Assembly: GCA_028280785.1 (NCBI GenBank) | Contig: JANQLF010000156.1 | Location: forward strand, 1 to 58,698 | Direction of reading: 5' to 3' | Source: Planctomycetota bacterium | Lineage (GTDB): Bacteria > Planctomycetota > UBA11346 | Length of the DNA: 58,698 nt | In this document: positions 17,721 through 23,681 of the stretch, piece after piece | How positions within the stretch are numbered: the first letter of the stretch is position 1 | How the letters are laid out: each line of letters begins with the position of its first letter | Translations under genes and position numbers: made by a program | Notes under the pieces: generated by a model | Database searches by the model: none | Seen by the model: the letters and a program-made list of their open reading frames with translations, nothing else | Told to the model about the DNA's origin: nothing

Positions 17721-17749
17721 TTAATTTTTCGAATTTAGAATATGGAATT

Positions 17750-17805
17750 TCGAATTTCGATTATCGAACATCGAGTCTCGACTATCGAACTTCGAGACTC
17801 GAGGT
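17750..17805. repeat. Degenerate heptamer array TCGANNN (8 units, exact period 7)
   Basis: TCGA occurs at 17750, 17757, 17764, 17771, 17778, 17785, 17792 and 17799, always 7 bp apart, while the other three bases vary. Inside it, TCGAGTCTCGA (17771-17781) and TCGAGACTCGA (17792-17802) are perfect inverted repeats around a 10-nt gap. Flanking GAAC (17766-17769) and GTTC (17804-17807) extend the stem. It may also act as a terminator. Confidence 0.9.
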
Positions 17806-17880
17806 TCTAAACTTGAAATTCGGAAATGAAACGAACCCTTACCAACGTAAAAATAGCTCCTCATTAATTCCAACCTTACC

Positions 17881-17977
17881 GCATGTGCTCGCCGTAAAGA
17901 GTTCCCTCACTGTGTTCGGCACTACGTGCTCTTGACTGCTCCGCGCAAGCGGGCGGCAGGAATTATAAGGAGCAACA
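17881..17977 (+). other. Conserved leader of the four-helix-bundle gene, copy 2
   Basis: This 97-nt stretch matches the minus-strand leader at 11449-11548 in blocks: CATGTGCTC, GTAAAG, TTCGGCACTACGTG, CTTGAC, GCGCAAGCG, and AAGGAGCA at the ribosome site. Conservation of non-coding sequence between two paralogues suggests function or recent copying. Confidence 0.5.
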
Positions 17978-18316
17978 ATGCACAACATCAACAACCTTCG
18001 CATTTATCAAAAAGCACGAGAAAATCTTCGTGCTATTCATCAACTCAGACAACGTGGTAGAAACTTCGGTGATTTAGCCAATCAACTCGAACGTTCAGCT
18101 ATATCAGTAGTGTCAAATATAGCGGAAGGTGCTGCGCAGGATTCGGATAAACAATGCCTGCGCTTTATGGGTTATGCGCGCGCATCGAATACGGAATTGC
18201 AAAGTCAATTAGCGTTGCTGAGCGATATTGGAAAAATGACAGAGGATCATCCGTTGCACGATCACATAAGCCATCTCGGTGCAATGATATCCGCCTTCAT
18301 GGCTTGCCTACGTTAG
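17978..18316 (+). CDS. Four-helix-bundle protein (S23 family), copy 2
   Basis: A 112-residue helical protein, same length as the copy at 11110-11448 and similar over its whole length (MHNINNLRIYQKAREN, NQLERSAISVVSNIAEGAA, RFMGYARASNTELQSQL). The family occurs inside 23S rRNA intervening sequences and as single genes; function is not established. An AAGGAGCA ribosome site lies 7 bases before the ATG. It marks the left end of the accessory region with small plus-strand genes. Confidence 0.85.
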   Translation: MHNINNLRIYQKARENLRAIHQLRQRGRNFGDLANQLERSAISVVSNIAEGAAQDSDKQCLRFMGYARASNTELQSQLALLSDIGKMTEDHPLHDHISHLGAMISAFMACLR

Positions 18317-18378: not shown

Positions 18379-18616
18379 ATTGCCGAGCGCAACGCGACGA
18401 AGTGCCCGCAGCGTAGCGAGGACACGAGGAGATGGTCAAGGGTGGCCTCACTCTCGATTATCTGTGTCAAAAGACTTGTGAAAACACCACCAAAATTCCT
18501 TGCTACAGAGTTTTTCCCTATAACTATAGATCTAGAGAAAAGCAAAGTGGTAATACAGCGAACTCATAAACAAAAAGGCATACAGTTGATGCAATTGAAA
18601 CCCAGGGATCTGCGAA
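18379..18616. other. Intergenic stretch without convincing gene
   Basis: Part of a 352-bp gap between the four-helix-bundle gene and the first cassette-like gene. A 76-codon open frame crosses it (18442-18672), but it has no ribosome site and overlaps the attC-like sequence at 18617, so I do not call it. The region begins with several GC-rich imperfect palindromes (18385-18430). Confidence 0.4.
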
Positions 18617-18662
18617 GCCAAACAGGGTTCTCAGGTTTTTCTGTAGAATTATACTGTTGGGT
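18617..18662. repeat. Possible short attC-like (or attI-like) site
   Basis: A 46-bp imperfect palindrome. Outer arms are GCCAAAC (18617-18623) and GTTGGGT (18656-18662), and inner arms TCTCAG and CTGTAGA have one extra base. GTTGGGT is a perfect GTTRRRY core, and its sequence is the exact reverse complement of ACCCAAC, the left core of the next site at 18974. That is the relation expected for the two ends of one integron cassette (18657-19034). It is shorter than usual for an attC site. Confidence 0.4.
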
Positions 18663-18668
18663 TGACCT

Positions 18669-18956
18669 ATGAAAAATCTAAATGCAAATGAGAAACCCGT
18701 TGATCCGAGAAATGAAAATGAGGAAAAATTCTATTCAAAAATTGGTGAAATCGACAATGGTGATGTAATAAAAATATGGACTAGATCTGAGTACATGGAC
18801 AACCATTGGGATATAGATGAAAATCCAATAGATCCTGGATTTGATTATGTCGCCAGAGTGTCTGAAAAATCAAAAAACGGATTATATATAGGTGGCTCTC
18901 ATTACGGATATACTTTAGACAATCAAAAGGTAACATTAATTGACACATGTATTTAA
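18669..18956 (+). CDS. Hypothetical protein, first cassette-like gene
   Basis: A 95-residue acidic, soluble protein with no recognised family (segments EEKFYSKIGEIDNGDVIKIW and PGFDYVARVSEKSKNGLYIGG). It starts 12 bp inside a putative integron-cassette boundary at 18657 and ends 17 bp before an attC-like site. It has no Shine-Dalgarno, common for cassette genes. Its AT-rich composition differs from the flanking core genes. Confidence 0.6.
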   Translation: MKNLNANEKPVDPRNENEEKFYSKIGEIDNGDVIKIWTRSEYMDNHWDIDENPIDPGFDYVARVSEKSKNGLYIGGSHYGYTLDNQKVTLIDTCI

Positions 18957-18973
18957 TACAATTATTATGGGCA

Positions 18974-19040
18974 ACCCAACAATGCGTTTCAAAACGCGGA
19001 GCCTTGCTCCGCTCGGCCCCGCTGACCTTGGGCGTTGCTA
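18974..19040. repeat. attC-like recombination site 1 (67 bp)
   Basis: Left core ACCCAAC fits RYYYAAC exactly; the right core is GTTGCTA. After AAC come 8 bases then TCA, and before GTT come 8 bases preceded by TGA. The same geometry (AAC-N8-TYA ... TGA-N8-GTT) is found in the two following sites. Between the arms lies GC-rich sequence with its own palindrome (GCGGAGC, GCTCCGC), which is usual for attC. Confidence 0.65.
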
Positions 19041-19042
19041 AA

Positions 19043-19336
19043 ATGAAAGCGCTGCCAAATGAAGAGGTAAAAAAGGAATTATTGCCAAATGTGGAAGACA
19101 GGACTGCTGTCTTTTCTTTTGCTATGTCATTTAATGGTTATAACCACTTCGGATCATTTGAGGCTGCTAGTGAAAATGTAAAATTGAGAAAACGAAATAC
19201 TCTTACAGACTTAAGGAATGAATTGTTTATGAGTGCGCGCGGTTCAAATCATCGAGGGGATGATATGTTTTTAGAGAGATATAAAGAATTGCTACCATTG
19301 ATTAAAGAGGCTATAGATACAGGCCGATTGGAGTAA
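19043..19336 (+). CDS. Hypothetical cassette-like protein
   Basis: A 97-residue protein starting 8 bp inside a putative cassette boundary. I took the ATG at 19043 because the frame upstream runs through the attC-like site. The protein is helical and charged (RKRNTLTDLRNELFMSARGS, then FLERYKELLPLIKEAID). An N-terminal strand reads AVFSFAMSFNGYNHFGSFE. I recognise no family, and no membrane or signal segment is seen. The next attC-like site follows 20 bp after the stop. Confidence 0.6.
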   Translation: MKALPNEEVKKELLPNVEDRTAVFSFAMSFNGYNHFGSFEAASENVKLRKRNTLTDLRNELFMSARGSNHRGDDMFLERYKELLPLIKEAIDTGRLE

Positions 19337-19356
19337 CGGAGTGTATAACTATAGAA

Positions 19357-19423
19357 ATCCAACTATGAGTTTTATGACGCCATGCCACGTTCCGTGCGGA
19401 TTTGTTGATATGGTACGTTGGCC
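19357..19423. repeat. attC-like recombination site 2 (67 bp)
   Basis: Left core ATCCAAC fits RYYYAAC; the right core is GTTGGCC. The spacing is AAC, 8 bases, TTA on the left and TGA, 8 bases (TATGGTAC), GTT on the right, as in the neighbouring sites. The arms pair less well than in sites 1 and 3. A central hairpin CCACG-TTC-CGTG is present. The following lipoprotein gene starts 7 bp after the site. Confidence 0.55.
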
Positions 19424-19429
19424 ATCAAT

Positions 19430-19876
19430 ATGAAACCACTGTTACCGATTCTATTATCCTTAATTATTCTTGTTGCTTGCAATGATGATAAAGAAGAAGT
19501 GCGGATGAATAATAACGGTGCATTGATCATAATTGATTTTATTGACAATTATCCGGGTATATTTTGGATATCTAACTGGTCGAAAGATGAACACTATCCG
19601 AATGGATTCCGATATAAGATTGTGTCATCTGTGAATAAAAATACTGATTCTGCTATCTTGGTTGTGATTATAGAGGAATCGGATGGTTTAAAGACAGAAA
19701 TGACCAGAATGGAAGCAGATACATCTTCTCTTAAAAAAGTTGGACAGGTCTTCGTTGATGGACTAGCTGATGAATATGGGCTCAATTTTCAAGAGCAGGA
19801 TTACACTCATGTTGATACAGAAGAGATGTTTGTGATTGAAACGACTAAAAATGGATGGAATAGCAGCGATGGCTAA
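19430..19876 (+). CDS. Small lipoprotein, cassette-like gene
   Basis: A 148-residue protein with a lipoprotein signal: MKPLLPILLSLIILVAC, the Cys being the lipid-modified residue, followed by acidic NDDKEE. The mature part has beta-strand character and no family I know. The ATG at 19430 is chosen over an upstream TTG that is inside the attC-like core. The TAA stop lies within the left core (GGCTAAC) of the next attC-like site, an arrangement frequent in integron cassettes. Confidence 0.7.
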   Translation: MKPLLPILLSLIILVACNDDKEEVRMNNNGALIIIDFIDNYPGIFWISNWSKDEHYPNGFRYKIVSSVNKNTDSAILVVIIEESDGLKTEMTRMEADTSSLKKVGQVFVDGLADEYGLNFQEQDYTHVDTEEMFVIETTKNGWNSSDG

Positions 19877-19939
19877 CGATATATTTCATAAAATAGGAAG
19901 TCACACTTTTTACGATTTTTCTGATCTAGTGCGTTAGAT
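19871..19939. repeat. attC-like recombination site 3 (69 bp)
   Basis: Left core GGCTAAC and right core GTTAGAT, the latter a perfect GTTRRRY. Spacing is AAC, 8 bases, TCA and TGA, 8 bases (TCTAGTGC), GTT. The arms pair at CTAACG, TA, TCA and AAAA with mismatches between. The left core also pairs, with one wobble, with GTTGGCC at the start of the same cassette (19417). Confidence 0.65.
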
Positions 19940-19947
19940 GAATAAAA

Positions 19948-20364
19948 ATGAAATACACTGGGAATACATGGCGAATAAAGTGCGAAATAATAGGTATAGG
20001 GTTTGCAGTCTTCGCTATCGACTATCTTGTTTTCAGTAAGGAGCTATTTTGGGTGTCAATAATAGTCACTACCATACTCCTGTTTGTATTCCAATTTTTC
20101 AGCTGGAAACACTACGATATTGAAGTTACGGAATCGCCTATCATAGGCCCAGCGATGACTTACACGGAAAATAAGCAGGTTGAAATCGAATTGAAAACGG
20201 TTGCTTCAATTAAGTCTAGATCCGTTGGATGGTATCAGCGCAACATCGTAGTTACCTCAATGGATGGAACGAGTCTAATGATACACAGAGCCTATCATGG
20301 TCGAAAGCAGACACAGGCTATTCTTGATGAAATTAAACCATCTGTAAATATCGATCTAAGATGA
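19948..20364 (+). CDS. Two-span membrane protein with PH-like tail
   Basis: A 138-residue protein with two adjacent hydrophobic segments (residues about 12-48: IIGIGFAVFAIDYLVF and FWVSIIVTTILLFVFQFF). A cytoplasmic-type beta domain follows (HYDIEVTESPIIGPAM to MDGTSLMIHRAYHG), similar in layout to small bacterial PH-like (YdbT/bPH2-type) proteins; this is a shape-based guess. It starts 14 bp after the boundary at attC-like site 3. Its stop overlaps the start of the next lipoprotein gene by 4 bp. Confidence 0.65.
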   Translation: MKYTGNTWRIKCEIIGIGFAVFAIDYLVFSKELFWVSIIVTTILLFVFQFFSWKHYDIEVTESPIIGPAMTYTENKQVEIELKTVASIKSRSVGWYQRNIVVTSMDGTSLMIHRAYHGRKQTQAILDEIKPSVNIDLR

Positions 20365-20819
20365 TTATGAAATTAATAGTGTGTATGTTGGCTGTTTTAT
20401 TTATACAGGGGTGTTCCGATACGAGATCATCTGAAACTCGTGTTTTTGTCCGTAATTCATTATCAAAGTTGCCAGAGGGTAGAGGAACTTTGTTTCACTC
20501 ATTTAGTGAATTCGAGAAAATAACTGAAAAAGAGCGAAAATCACTGTTGCTTACCTATGACTCAAATTGGTATAAAGAAGTAGGTCAATATGGTAAGTAT
20601 AAAATAACGGGAGTTGAGTTTTTTCGCCATAAAACAGAGTACTATATTATCGCAGTTGCATTAATTGGATTCGTTGGTTCACATGAAACACTTTATCTTG
20701 ATGGTTATCCGCCTAAGGCTACCGCAGCTTATTACCTAACGCCTGACAGAGATAAGGCTTTTGTTTCCTTTGAAGAACTTTTAAGTGAAAGTCAAAGAAG
20801 GTACGAAAACAGAAGGTAA
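20361..20819 (+). CDS. Lipoprotein of unknown function
   Basis: A 152-residue protein with a type II signal (MKLIVCMLAVLFIQGCSD, Cys lipidated). The mature part is charged and has segments such as KYKITGVEFFRHKTEYYIIAV. Family not recognised. The ATG overlaps the stop of the preceding membrane protein gene, so they are probably translationally coupled. No attC-like site separates them. Confidence 0.65.
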   Translation: MIMKLIVCMLAVLFIQGCSDTRSSETRVFVRNSLSKLPEGRGTLFHSFSEFEKITEKERKSLLLTYDSNWYKEVGQYGKYKITGVEFFRHKTEYYIIAVALIGFVGSHETLYLDGYPPKATAAYYLTPDRDKAFVSFEELLSESQRRYENRR

Positions 20820-20820
20820 G

Positions 20821-21318
20821 ATGATCGCCGTCTTCGATAATCACTATTTTGATGAAACCGTGCGTTCAGCAGTTTGTTGTATACAAGACTGGAGCGATGA
20901 CATACCTGCACTTGAAAAGTGTATGATGGATGCGATTAGTTCAGATTATGTGCCTGGCGAATTTTTCCGGCGTGAATTGCCGTCGATAATTAAGTTGATT
21001 CAGGAACTTGATGTGGAATTACACACACTCGTTATTGATGGCTATGTGGATTTATCAACTGGACGTCCCGGCTTAGGACGGCATTTGTATAATCACTTTG
21101 AAGAGCAGGTTCCGGTCATCGGTGTGGCTAAAAATGCATTTAAAGAATCTGATACGCATCATGAAGTCTTACGTGGTGAGTCGCAGAGCCCCGTGTTTAT
21201 AACTGCTTGCGGCTTGGATACTTCGACAGCAGCTGATTACATTAGCGCTATGCATGGACAATTTCGAATTCCGAGTATCCTCAAATGCGTGGATCGATTG
21301 GCTAGAGATGGTGAATAA
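20821..21318 (+). CDS. Endonuclease V family protein (short form)
   Basis: A 165-residue protein with the endonuclease V core, which cleaves DNA or RNA next to inosine. Visible blocks are an early Asp (MIAVFDNHY), the FFRRELPSIIKLI helix, the LVIDGYVDLSTGRPGLGRHL metal-binding block and VIGVAKNAF. Classic NfI enzymes are near 220 residues; this one lacks part of the N-terminus but resembles known compact homologues. The ATG at 20821 begins with MIAVFD; upstream frame sequence is overlap with the lipoprotein gene. It may be a repair or defence-related accessory gene. Confidence 0.75.
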   Translation: MIAVFDNHYFDETVRSAVCCIQDWSDDIPALEKCMMDAISSDYVPGEFFRRELPSIIKLIQELDVELHTLVIDGYVDLSTGRPGLGRHLYNHFEEQVPVIGVAKNAFKESDTHHEVLRGESQSPVFITACGLDTSTAADYISAMHGQFRIPSILKCVDRLARDGE

Positions 21319-21347
21319 TTATCATTTCTTTAACGCAGGAGCATATC

Positions 21348-21590
21348 ATGGATCGTAATAGCCCACATATTCAACTGGCCTATCACTCGATAGCCTGTTT
21401 TAGTGATGATGGCACCTTAGATTTAGAAGAAATAAATTTTCTGATGGGTATTGCACTTGCCGACAAGAACATTGATGATGATGAGAGGCGGGTCTTGTCT
21501 TCGATTTTCTCAAAGATTTCGATGGCCGATGTCGCGCCCAAGGTCTGGGATCGGATCAAGGCAATAAAAGAAAAACATTCAATTCCTTAA
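21348..21590 (+). CDS. Small TerB-like / EF-hand-like helical protein
   Basis: An 80-residue helical acidic protein. The block TLDLEEINFLMGIALADKNI followed by DDDERRVLSSIFSKI resembles the helical repeats of TerB-like proteins, in which acidic loops may bind metal. A GCAGGAGC ribosome site precedes the ATG. It lies between endonuclease V and a GNAT gene in a tight plus-strand series. Confidence 0.6.
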   Translation: MDRNSPHIQLAYHSIACFSDDGTLDLEEINFLMGIALADKNIDDDERRVLSSIFSKISMADVAPKVWDRIKAIKEKHSIP

Positions 21591-21607
21591 ATTGTCTTAG
21601 AAATAAA

Positions 21608-22168
21608 ATGCACATTAATAACGTAGCGCCGAATGATCTTGCTGATTATGCAAAGATTCCTATCTCATTTGAGGTGGGGTCTCGCTTTGATATTACTAGT
21701 GAGCCTGGGTCGTTTGAAATTATAGAGCAGCAAGTGGATGAGGTGTGGCTTAAAGATTATGACGCACATGAATCGCCTGCCGCGTTAGCGAATCGATTTG
21801 ATTTACAAAACTGGGGAATTTTATTGGCCTGTGAAGCTGATGCGCCGATTGGTGGCTGTATCATTGCTCACAATTCAGCGGATGTGGATATGCTTCGGGG
21901 GCGAAGTGATCTTGCTGTCTTGTGGGATATTCGCGTGGTACCTGAATCTCGCGGGAGCGGTTTAGGTAAGCAGCTTTTTACTGCGGCTATTAATTGGGCC
22001 AAGGATCGCGGTTGTACTGAAATGCATATCGAAACGCAGAACATCAATGTTCCAGCATGCAAATTCTATCAAAGGATGGGTTGTCACCTGCACAGTGTTG
22101 AGCGAAATGCTTATGCTGCATGTCCTGGTGAAGATAGACTAATCTGGGCGATTGATCTTCGATCTTAA
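21608..22168 (+). CDS. GNAT-family N-acetyltransferase
   Basis: A 186-residue GNAT protein. The acetyl-CoA binding motif is seen as VLWDIRVVPESRGSGLGKQL, then the helix LFTAAINWAKDRGC, and the NINVPACKFYQRMGC segment typical of the C-terminal strand-helix. Substrate unknown; GNATs are common in cassette arrays and often modify antibiotics or proteins. It starts 17 bp after the TerB-like gene. Confidence 0.85.
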   Translation: MHINNVAPNDLADYAKIPISFEVGSRFDITSEPGSFEIIEQQVDEVWLKDYDAHESPAALANRFDLQNWGILLACEADAPIGGCIIAHNSADVDMLRGRSDLAVLWDIRVVPESRGSGLGKQLFTAAINWAKDRGCTEMHIETQNINVPACKFYQRMGCHLHSVERNAYAACPGEDRLIWAIDLRS

Positions 22169-22191
22169 CTGGTACATTGTGTTGCATTAAT

Positions 22192-22629
22192 ATGAGTGTT
22201 GAATGGTTTAATTGGTATTGTCAACAGATTTCAAAGTCTAAGAATTATTCAACATACCGCGAGAATTACATTTGTCCCTGTTGTTTCTTGCCAACATTGA
22301 GTTCAAGAAACGAATTTGATATATGCCCTGTTTGTTTTTGGGAAGATGATGGCCAAGATTCCGATGATGCTGATATGGTTAGAGGTGGACCCAATAAAGA
22401 TTATTCATTAACAGAAGCACGTTTAAATTTTGAGAAATATGGTACTATGTACCGAATTGAAGACAAAAAAGGTTTTGCTGTAGGAATGGCAGCGGCTGAG
22501 AGATCTGCAGATTATCGAGAAGCTGTAATTAAAGCTGTCAATTCTGGCACAATCGAAGATTGGAAAGTAGCTTGTTCTGCAAAGGAAGAGATTTATCAAG
22601 ATGATGAAGAAGACTTGGATGGCACATAA
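22192..22629 (+). CDS. CPCC-type zinc-ribbon protein
   Basis: A 145-residue protein with two Cys pairs: YICPCCFLPTLSSR and FDICPVCFWEDDGQDSDD. This matches the CPCC family of cysteine-rich proteins, small zinc-ribbon proteins frequent in mobile or toxin-immunity loci. The rest is charged and helical. I took the ATG at 22192. The stop codon touches the start of the next gene, so the two are probably coupled. Confidence 0.75.
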   Translation: MSVEWFNWYCQQISKSKNYSTYRENYICPCCFLPTLSSRNEFDICPVCFWEDDGQDSDDADMVRGGPNKDYSLTEARLNFEKYGTMYRIEDKKGFAVGMAAAERSADYREAVIKAVNSGTIEDWKVACSAKEEIYQDDEEDLDGT

Positions 22630-23175
22630 ATGAAAATATGCCTCATGTTCATATTTCTATTATGTATCATCCTATTCAATGGATGCGAAGATCCAAAAAA
22701 AGAGGTATCTATGGACGACGATCAATTTGCTGCTTTTGTTGACGAGAGCTATGACTGGCTGGAAAAGCAGCAGGCTCAATTACAAGAAACCTATGATATC
22801 GGTTCTTATGATGCTTATTGGTATGATCAGGAACAAGGTGTTTTGCAGTTTAAAAATAATGATGTGGTAGAACTTGAGTTTTCCTATGTCGGTATCGGTT
22901 CGTGGAATAATGAAAAGAACAGTTACATGTGGGCATGGGGTAATAATACGGTCGTGGAAGAGCGGCAGCGCGAGTCACTGCGTATCCAAGCCTTGGCTGA
23001 AAAAACCGGAATTGCGCTTTTTACGACCAAGGCCTTTGAATGCGATGAAGGCATGGCTTGGGAGTTAGCAGCGATGGCAGCAAAGGAATTGAATGCACTT
23101 GGTGTTTATCGTATTCCACATGGCAGTCTTGAAATCTTTTTGGCTATCATGAAGCCGACTCAAAGCCCTAAATAG
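22630..23175 (+). CDS. Lipoprotein with DUF6882-like domain
   Basis: A 181-residue protein with a lipoprotein signal (MKICLMFIFLLCIILFNGCE). The mature part resembles DUF6882: FVDESYDWLEKQQAQLQETY, YMWAWGNNTV, then a closing GVYRIPHGSLEIFLAI strand. DUF6882 proteins often occur near toxin or immunity genes; the role is unknown. The ATG follows the preceding stop directly. Confidence 0.6.
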   Translation: MKICLMFIFLLCIILFNGCEDPKKEVSMDDDQFAAFVDESYDWLEKQQAQLQETYDIGSYDAYWYDQEQGVLQFKNNDVVELEFSYVGIGSWNNEKNSYMWAWGNNTVVEERQRESLRIQALAEKTGIALFTTKAFECDEGMAWELAAMAAKELNALGVYRIPHGSLEIFLAIMKPTQSPK

Positions 23176-23214
23176 ATAAATTTCAGCTAAAAAGGCCGAA
23201 GAAAATTGATAATG

Positions 23215-23235
23215 ACTCATTAAATTTTAATGAGT
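23215..23235. repeat. Perfect 10-bp AT-rich inverted repeat
   Basis: ACTCATTAAA and TTTAATGAGT with one central T. It lies upstream of the next small gene. It could be an operator; there is no run of T to make it a clear terminator. Confidence 0.4.
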
Positions 23236-23285
23236 GATGTTTTGTCATGGAATTGCTAGGTCACTAGTTAAGCTGTTTGATTAGT

Positions 23286-23681
23286 ATGCCTGTCCGCATT
23301 TTTCTCATTATCGTTCAGCCGATCTTGTTCTTAGTGATCTGTATTTCGGTGTATGTGATCACTGGTGTAGGAGCGATTCTCTACGCCATGGCATTTGCAT
23401 TTTTTGTTATTTTTACGGTGAGTGGAATTGTTATCATGGTACGTCGTGGCGTGGCGCGTTGTGTACATATAGATGATCAAGACTTAGTCGTTGAACGCCG
23501 TTGGCCGTGGGATGCTATTCAGGTTAAATTATCGGAAGCAAAAATACATCACGTTGGTGCTAAGTTTTATCGCATCGAAGCTAATGATGAATCCATCTCA
23601 TTTGATAAGAGTGTTTGTACCTGCATGAGTGAAGAAGCGTTTAAATCGCTGTGTGAGCAGAATGAGGCTCAATATCAGTGA
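23286..23681 (+). CDS. Two-span membrane protein, unknown
   Basis: A 131-residue protein with two hydrophobic segments near the N-terminus (IFLIIVQPILFLVICISVYV and AILYAMAFAFFVIFTVSGIV), then a soluble beta-rich tail. The layout is similar to the cassette-associated membrane protein at 19948, so the two may be distant relatives. The ATG at 23286 is preferred over a TTG 9 bp upstream. Its stop is 4 bp before a hexamer repeat array. Confidence 0.6.
   Translation: MPVRIFLIIVQPILFLVICISVYVITGVGAILYAMAFAFFVIFTVSGIVIMVRRGVARCVHIDDQDLVVERRWPWDAIQVKLSEAKIHHVGAKFYRIEANDESISFDKSVCTCMSEEAFKSLCEQNEAQYQ

Follow-up and report, generated by a model that had tools for sequence, protein, structure and literature searches.

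A three-cassette attC array with an attI-like left end and no adjacent integrase in a Planctomycetota genome

A classical integron consists of one integrase, one attI site and one array of cassettes, and runs of small genes of the Imm1, SUKH, DUF4303, DUF2314, CPCC and DUF6882 families are typical of polyimmunity loci. Clusters of attC sites lacking an integron-integrase are known as CALIN (IntegronFinder, PMC9024848), and the insertion of integron cassettes at attG sites has also been described (Loot et al. 2024, cited in PMC12901181 and PMC11023631). Both Planctomycetota and Verrucomicrobiota are included in a listing of integron phyla (PMC8618304).

The window analyzed here is a stretch of 58,698 nucleotides from a Planctomycetota bacterium, and all the features located in it below lie on its plus strand. 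Positions 18657-19933 very probably correspond to three integron cassettes, each composed of one gene and one attC site, which form an array devoid of an adjacent integrase and starting at an attI-like left end. By definition, this array is a CALIN and not a complete integron, with three attC sites in less than 1 kb, cassettes of one gene each, all on the same strand, and no intI. It departs from a usual CALIN in that the genome contains at least eight such clusters, most of them beginning at a shared attI-like, promoter-like motif and not at random sites. The attC architecture and the ACTG|TTRGG-like left junction resemble those of the sedentary chromosomal integrons found in relatives (G009, G040, G113 and G252), but here no intI lies by any array, several docking sites are present instead of one, and each array contains only 1-3 attC sites. 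Likewise, the same-strand runs of small genes encoding Imm1, SUKH, DUF4303, CPCC and DUF6882 downstream of the arrays recall polyimmunity loci, except that they are headed by attC cassettes and by a gene for a 23S rRNA intervening-sequence protein (IVP). Its distinguishing trait is that attI-like ends are dispersed and accompanied by a leader and an IVP gene.

The three attC sites, located at 18974-19040 (site 1), 19357-19423 (site 2) and 19871-19939 (site 3), had been singled out in a preliminary description of the sequence by their common geometry, AAC-N8-TYA on the left and TGA-N8-GTT on the right. Scanned for this pattern, with 20-45 bases between its two halves, the whole window yielded exactly these three sites on the plus strand. 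The chance expectation for the same pattern, based on dinucleotide shuffles, was a mean of 0.33 matches per window; within the surrounding 1.4 kb, three matches were observed against 0.007 expected, and none of the 300 shuffles reached three, which ruled out a chance origin of the cluster. The sites span 966 bp; a CALIN is defined by two or more attC sites separated by less than 4 kb.

All three sites (3/3) possess the AAC/GTT cores. Compared with the attC box consensus (R'' = RYYYAAC; R' = GTTRRRY), the R'' box is complete in sites 1 (ACCCAAC) and 2 (ATCCAAC) and near-consensus in site 3 (GGCTAAC), and the R' boxes of sites 1 and 2 are off consensus (GTTGCTA and GTTGGCC, respectively). Folding of the bottom strand, suggested earlier as a check, closed the R stem in two sites: site 1 does so if its own R' is used for pairing, and the lowest-energy structure of site 3 has the R stem and the TCA/TGA stem, with the L stem kept. 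Site 2, in contrast, folded poorly and its R stem was not closed; this diverged site may be decaying. Within the attC family of this genome, the left stem arm of several sites can pair with either of two segments (for example, GCTCCGC or GGCCCCGC in site 1); these sites also have a bulge of 4-6 bases at the position of the single extrahelical base of classical attC sites.

Recognition of the sites by covariance models, also suggested earlier, succeeded for all three with a model derived from the same genome but for site 1 alone with a generic one. The generic model (R1), home-made from class 1 cassettes and from attC sites beside intI in other genera, recovers known attC sites in plasmids and in other members of the phylum. 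In the window, its only match was a weak one to site 1 (10.1 bits, with E = 0.18 in a 7-kb search); it was dropped as a detector of sites 2 and 3, being too divergent. The second model (R2) was built from eleven attC-like sites located on different contigs elsewhere in this genome, the window being held out. Its three best matches in the window have the exact coordinates of site 1 (70.0 bits, E = 5.6e-16), site 3 (42.8 bits, E = 9.4e-9) and site 2 (27.8 bits, E = 9.1e-5), followed by a match at 13.7 bits. Moreover, the top matches of R2 in four loci of relatives (L039, L040, L043 and L046) are genuine attC arrays beside intI, none of which belonged to its training set. As R2 matches both the held-out sites and the intI-adjacent attC sites of relatives, the window sites are attC sites of a lineage-specific type. 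Covariation within the attC family of this genome was not above that of shuffles because its members are too alike. The Rfam scan of the window gave no match, and the plasmid search with site 1 returned only partial matches at chance level.

Cassette 1 (378 bp; 18657-19034) contains an ORF of 95 aa (18669-18956), cassette 2 (383 bp; 19035-19417) an ORF of 97 aa (19043-19336), and cassette 3 (516 bp; 19418-19933) an ORF of 148 aa (19430-19876) encoding a putative lipoprotein with a hydrophobic start ending in ILVAC. None of them belongs to a known family. The limits of cassettes 2 and 3 are given by the R' core coordinates, and those of cassette 1 by the complementarity between R' and R'' and by a homologous cassette on contig C95 that starts at the same base. 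As the preliminary description had pointed out, GTTGGGT (18656-18662) and ACCCAAC at 18974 are exact reverse complements, and the ends of cassette 3 (GTTGGCC/GGCTAAC) differ from complementarity by one mismatch; the ends of cassette 2 (GTTGCTA/ATCCAAC), which it omitted, do not match. It had also placed gene starts 8-14 bp after the boundaries and one stop codon inside a core. Indeed, the start codons lie 12, 8, 12 and 14 bp past the successive G|TT boundaries, and the stop codon of the cassette 3 gene (19874-19876) falls inside the R'' box of site 3. A search of 84,980 species genomes, sensitive to close relatives only, returned no relative of the cassette 1 protein, and the AlphaFold model of the cassette 2 protein (pLDDT 48) was unusable.

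The second copy of cassette 1, on contig C95 (locus L069), is 79% identical at the DNA level over 301 bp and 78% identical at the protein level. Homology between the window and C95 begins exactly at 18656, the G of GTTGGGT (crossover 18656|18657), and the left flanks of the two copies are unrelated, with a docking site in the window and an attC site in C95. This break at G|TT is the breakpoint predicted for recombination by IntI and gives direct evidence that cassette 1 is mobile and has at some time changed its place in this genome. The copy on C95 has lost its own attC site. An empty site was not shown among 22 relatives, none of the same genus, all of which lack the gene at 19948-20364.

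At the genome level, the scan with R2 revealed about 20 sites on C23, C52, C57 (the window contig), C63, C92, C95, C273 and C282, in addition to a doubtful candidate on C292 (C292:25289; 28.9 bits) that looks like a terminator hairpin. Clusters of attC sites are thus found on at least seven contigs besides that of the window, with about 8 arrays in total, all very short (1-3 attC sites each). Truncated attC copies are present on C52.

The window had been described as lacking an integrase, and none was found on its contig; nor does an intI gene adjoin any array of the genome, a complete integron being defined by intI beside attI. Extending the search for an IntI gene to the whole assembly (316 contigs, about 90% complete, 5.7 Mb) yielded nothing over the cut-off of the IntI profile, the two best matches being XerC and XerD. 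With a completeness of about 90%, the assembly could have missed an IntI gene. In the assembled part there is no IntI, and the integrase is therefore missing, was lost, or acted from elsewhere; the cassettes would have been placed by an IntI that has since been lost, was not assembled or acts in trans. The proposal of an integrase-less cluster of attC cassettes was borne out by the held-out model, the attC clusters of seven or more further contigs, the homology with C95 starting at the crossover base and the lack of IntI in the assembly. The accompanying statement that integrons are unusual in this lineage was wrong, since 71 of the 392 genomes examined in the phylum have an IntI above the cut-off and 10 of 23 genomes of the same family have a match, in line with the listing of integron phyla (PMC8618304); integron integrases are common in this phylum.

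The attI-like left end of the window array (18637-18658; TATACTG|TTGGGT, crossover 18656|18657) was recognized by a motif shared between array starts and by its resemblance to attI. The array start was fixed independently in five arrays (window, C23, C63, C95 and C273) because GTTNNNN is there the exact complement of the R'' box of the first attC site, with one mismatch in a sixth array (C52). All six starts read WATACKG|T, and a -10-like hexamer lies within or next to the motif common to array starts, TTTYC..TA..WATACKG|TT. The similarity between left ends extends over about 22 bp. Homology between docking sites ends at the junction, with left/right scores of 57/14 for C92-C273, 52/21 for C138-C92 and 33/16 for C95-C63 (null maximum of about 22), which is the pattern expected if the attI side stays constant and the cassette side varies. 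The motif TTTYCNNTANANHWATACKGTT has three exact matches in the 5.7 Mb, all of them array starts, and array starts account for 5 of its 7 matches with at most one mismatch, these counts being descriptive only because the motif was written from the same array ends. In relatives, the attI site lies at a constant distance from intI and reads AATAARCTG|TTRGG (G009 twice, G040, G113, G252 and G271). The left ends of the present genome show a moderate resemblance to this family attI, each ranking in the top 1-10% of GTT positions.

The hexamer preceding the junction, TATACT or TATAAT, is similar to a -10 box. In the window, the consensus scan detected a promoter-like sequence, TTCTCA-16-TATACT (18628-18655; 9/12 matches), whose 3' end lies 1 bp upstream of the junction G. 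We infer that the left-end hexamer would be a working promoter; transcripts initiated from it would begin about 7 bp into the cassette, in keeping with genes devoid of Shine-Dalgarno sites.

Upstream of the array, the window contains a gene encoding a 23S rRNA IVP-like protein (17978-18316; PF05635, four-helix bundle; Pfam E = 4.9e-21). The genome possesses 13 copies of PF05635 genes, one of which lies directly upstream and on the same strand in 5 of the 8 attC arrays (window, C63, C92, C95 and C273), compared to about 0.006 such neighbours expected by chance (by proportion). C138 combines an IVP gene, a docking site with the same type of start (ATATACTG|TTATGC) and an island without attC sites. 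No IVP gene was found near the intI loci fetched from relatives. Between the IVP gene and the array, a leader repeat, CTGTGTCAAAAGACTTGTGA, is located at 18462-18481. Its five full matches in the genome all precede attC arrays or the C138 island, the next best having 3 mismatches, and it is absent from the 22 relatives. The gap between leader and junction measures 100-200 bp in three arrays (window 18530-18656; L069 555-665; L096 9210-9380), and leader and junction lie close together in C63, C92, C273 and C138.

Behind the cassettes, the window contains a series of small genes on the same strand (19948-23681) among which no attC site was detected, with Pfam assignments including endonuclease V-like, GNAT-like, CPCC and DUF6882. 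Comparable long one-strand runs were observed behind attC cassettes in L069 (2747-8953) and L124 (1246-8201), and the families identified by Pfam in these runs include Imm1, SUKH, DUF4303, DUF2314, CPCC and DUF6882. No trace of the downstream genes being former cassettes was found, with no further attC match in the window. The all-against-all comparison of island genes revealed essentially one shared cassette, and thus gave no proof that genes without attC sites are former cassettes.

Under the reading of the locus as three integron cassettes, the bottom strand of the attC sites would be extruded as a hairpin, and cleavage by an integron integrase would fall at 5'-G|TT in R'. Cassettes would enter at the left end (18656|18657), a putative attI-like docking site ending in a -10-like hexamer, and transcription of the first, newest cassette would probably begin about 7 bp into it, so that its message would be translated with a minimal leader. 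The present genome has several docking sites of this type, each with a different cassette set. The main competing reading accepts the attC sites as real but considers them inert, the array being a fossil left by the loss or deletion of intI, with no movement for a long time. This is a serious possibility, although somewhat short of probable: the lack of IntI in the assembly, the degraded appearance of site 2 and of other sites, the truncated copies on C52 and the C95 copy of cassette 1 without its attC site all agree with it, whereas the 95% identity between site 1 and a site on C282 and the exact R'/R'' complements kept by several attC sites do not, and in an assembly only about 90% complete IntI may simply be missing.

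An integrase may also have inserted the cassettes at non-classical genomic sites (attG) and not at a true attI, as would befit arrays that are scattered, with unrelated flanks and no adjacent intI; insertion at attG, as outlined in the two citing papers, likewise leaves cassettes at dispersed genomic positions without intI. This explanation appears unlikely, as the left ends share an extended motif of about 22 bp and, in part, the leader repeat, which is more than expected of scattered attG events, and they resemble the attI of the family. Far less probable still is an unrelated family of REP-like palindromes between small genes. The sites are indeed short hairpin repeats with about 20 members per genome, but the complementarity of R'' and R' between the two ends of one cassette and the cross-detection of true attC sites beside intI in relatives argue against such an origin, which was rejected on the grounds of the homology between the two cassette 1 copies starting at the crossover base.

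Building on the reading as integron cassettes, a broader scheme is put forward as speculative. The genome might harbour a distributed integron, in which an attI-like docking site exists in several copies, each joined to a promoter and in most cases preceded by a 23S-IVP four-helix-bundle gene, and each would receive different cassettes from an integrase located elsewhere; the arrays would head polyimmunity-like islands, whose genes without attC sites would be older, fixed cassettes. If the docking sites were working attI sites, cassette capture would be spread over many loci, with each new gene expressed at once, and cassettes would have a route to seed chromosomal islands such as polyimmunity loci.

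Other repeated structures were observed around the IVP genes and elsewhere in the genome. Most IVP genes, including that of the window, are preceded by a long imperfect hairpin (17868-17980 in the window) that takes in the ribosome-binding GGAG (for example GTTCTCCTTAT ... ATAAGGAGAAC), which suggests autoregulation or an element similar to an rRNA insert. Further upstream, short palindromic stretches (TCGAGTCTCGACTATCGAACTTCGAGACTCGAGG) are repeated at 17740-17810. Finally, C282 carries a lone, well-preserved attC site (L070 6102-6171; 75.6 bits), located immediately behind one gene and ahead of another, without a cassette array.
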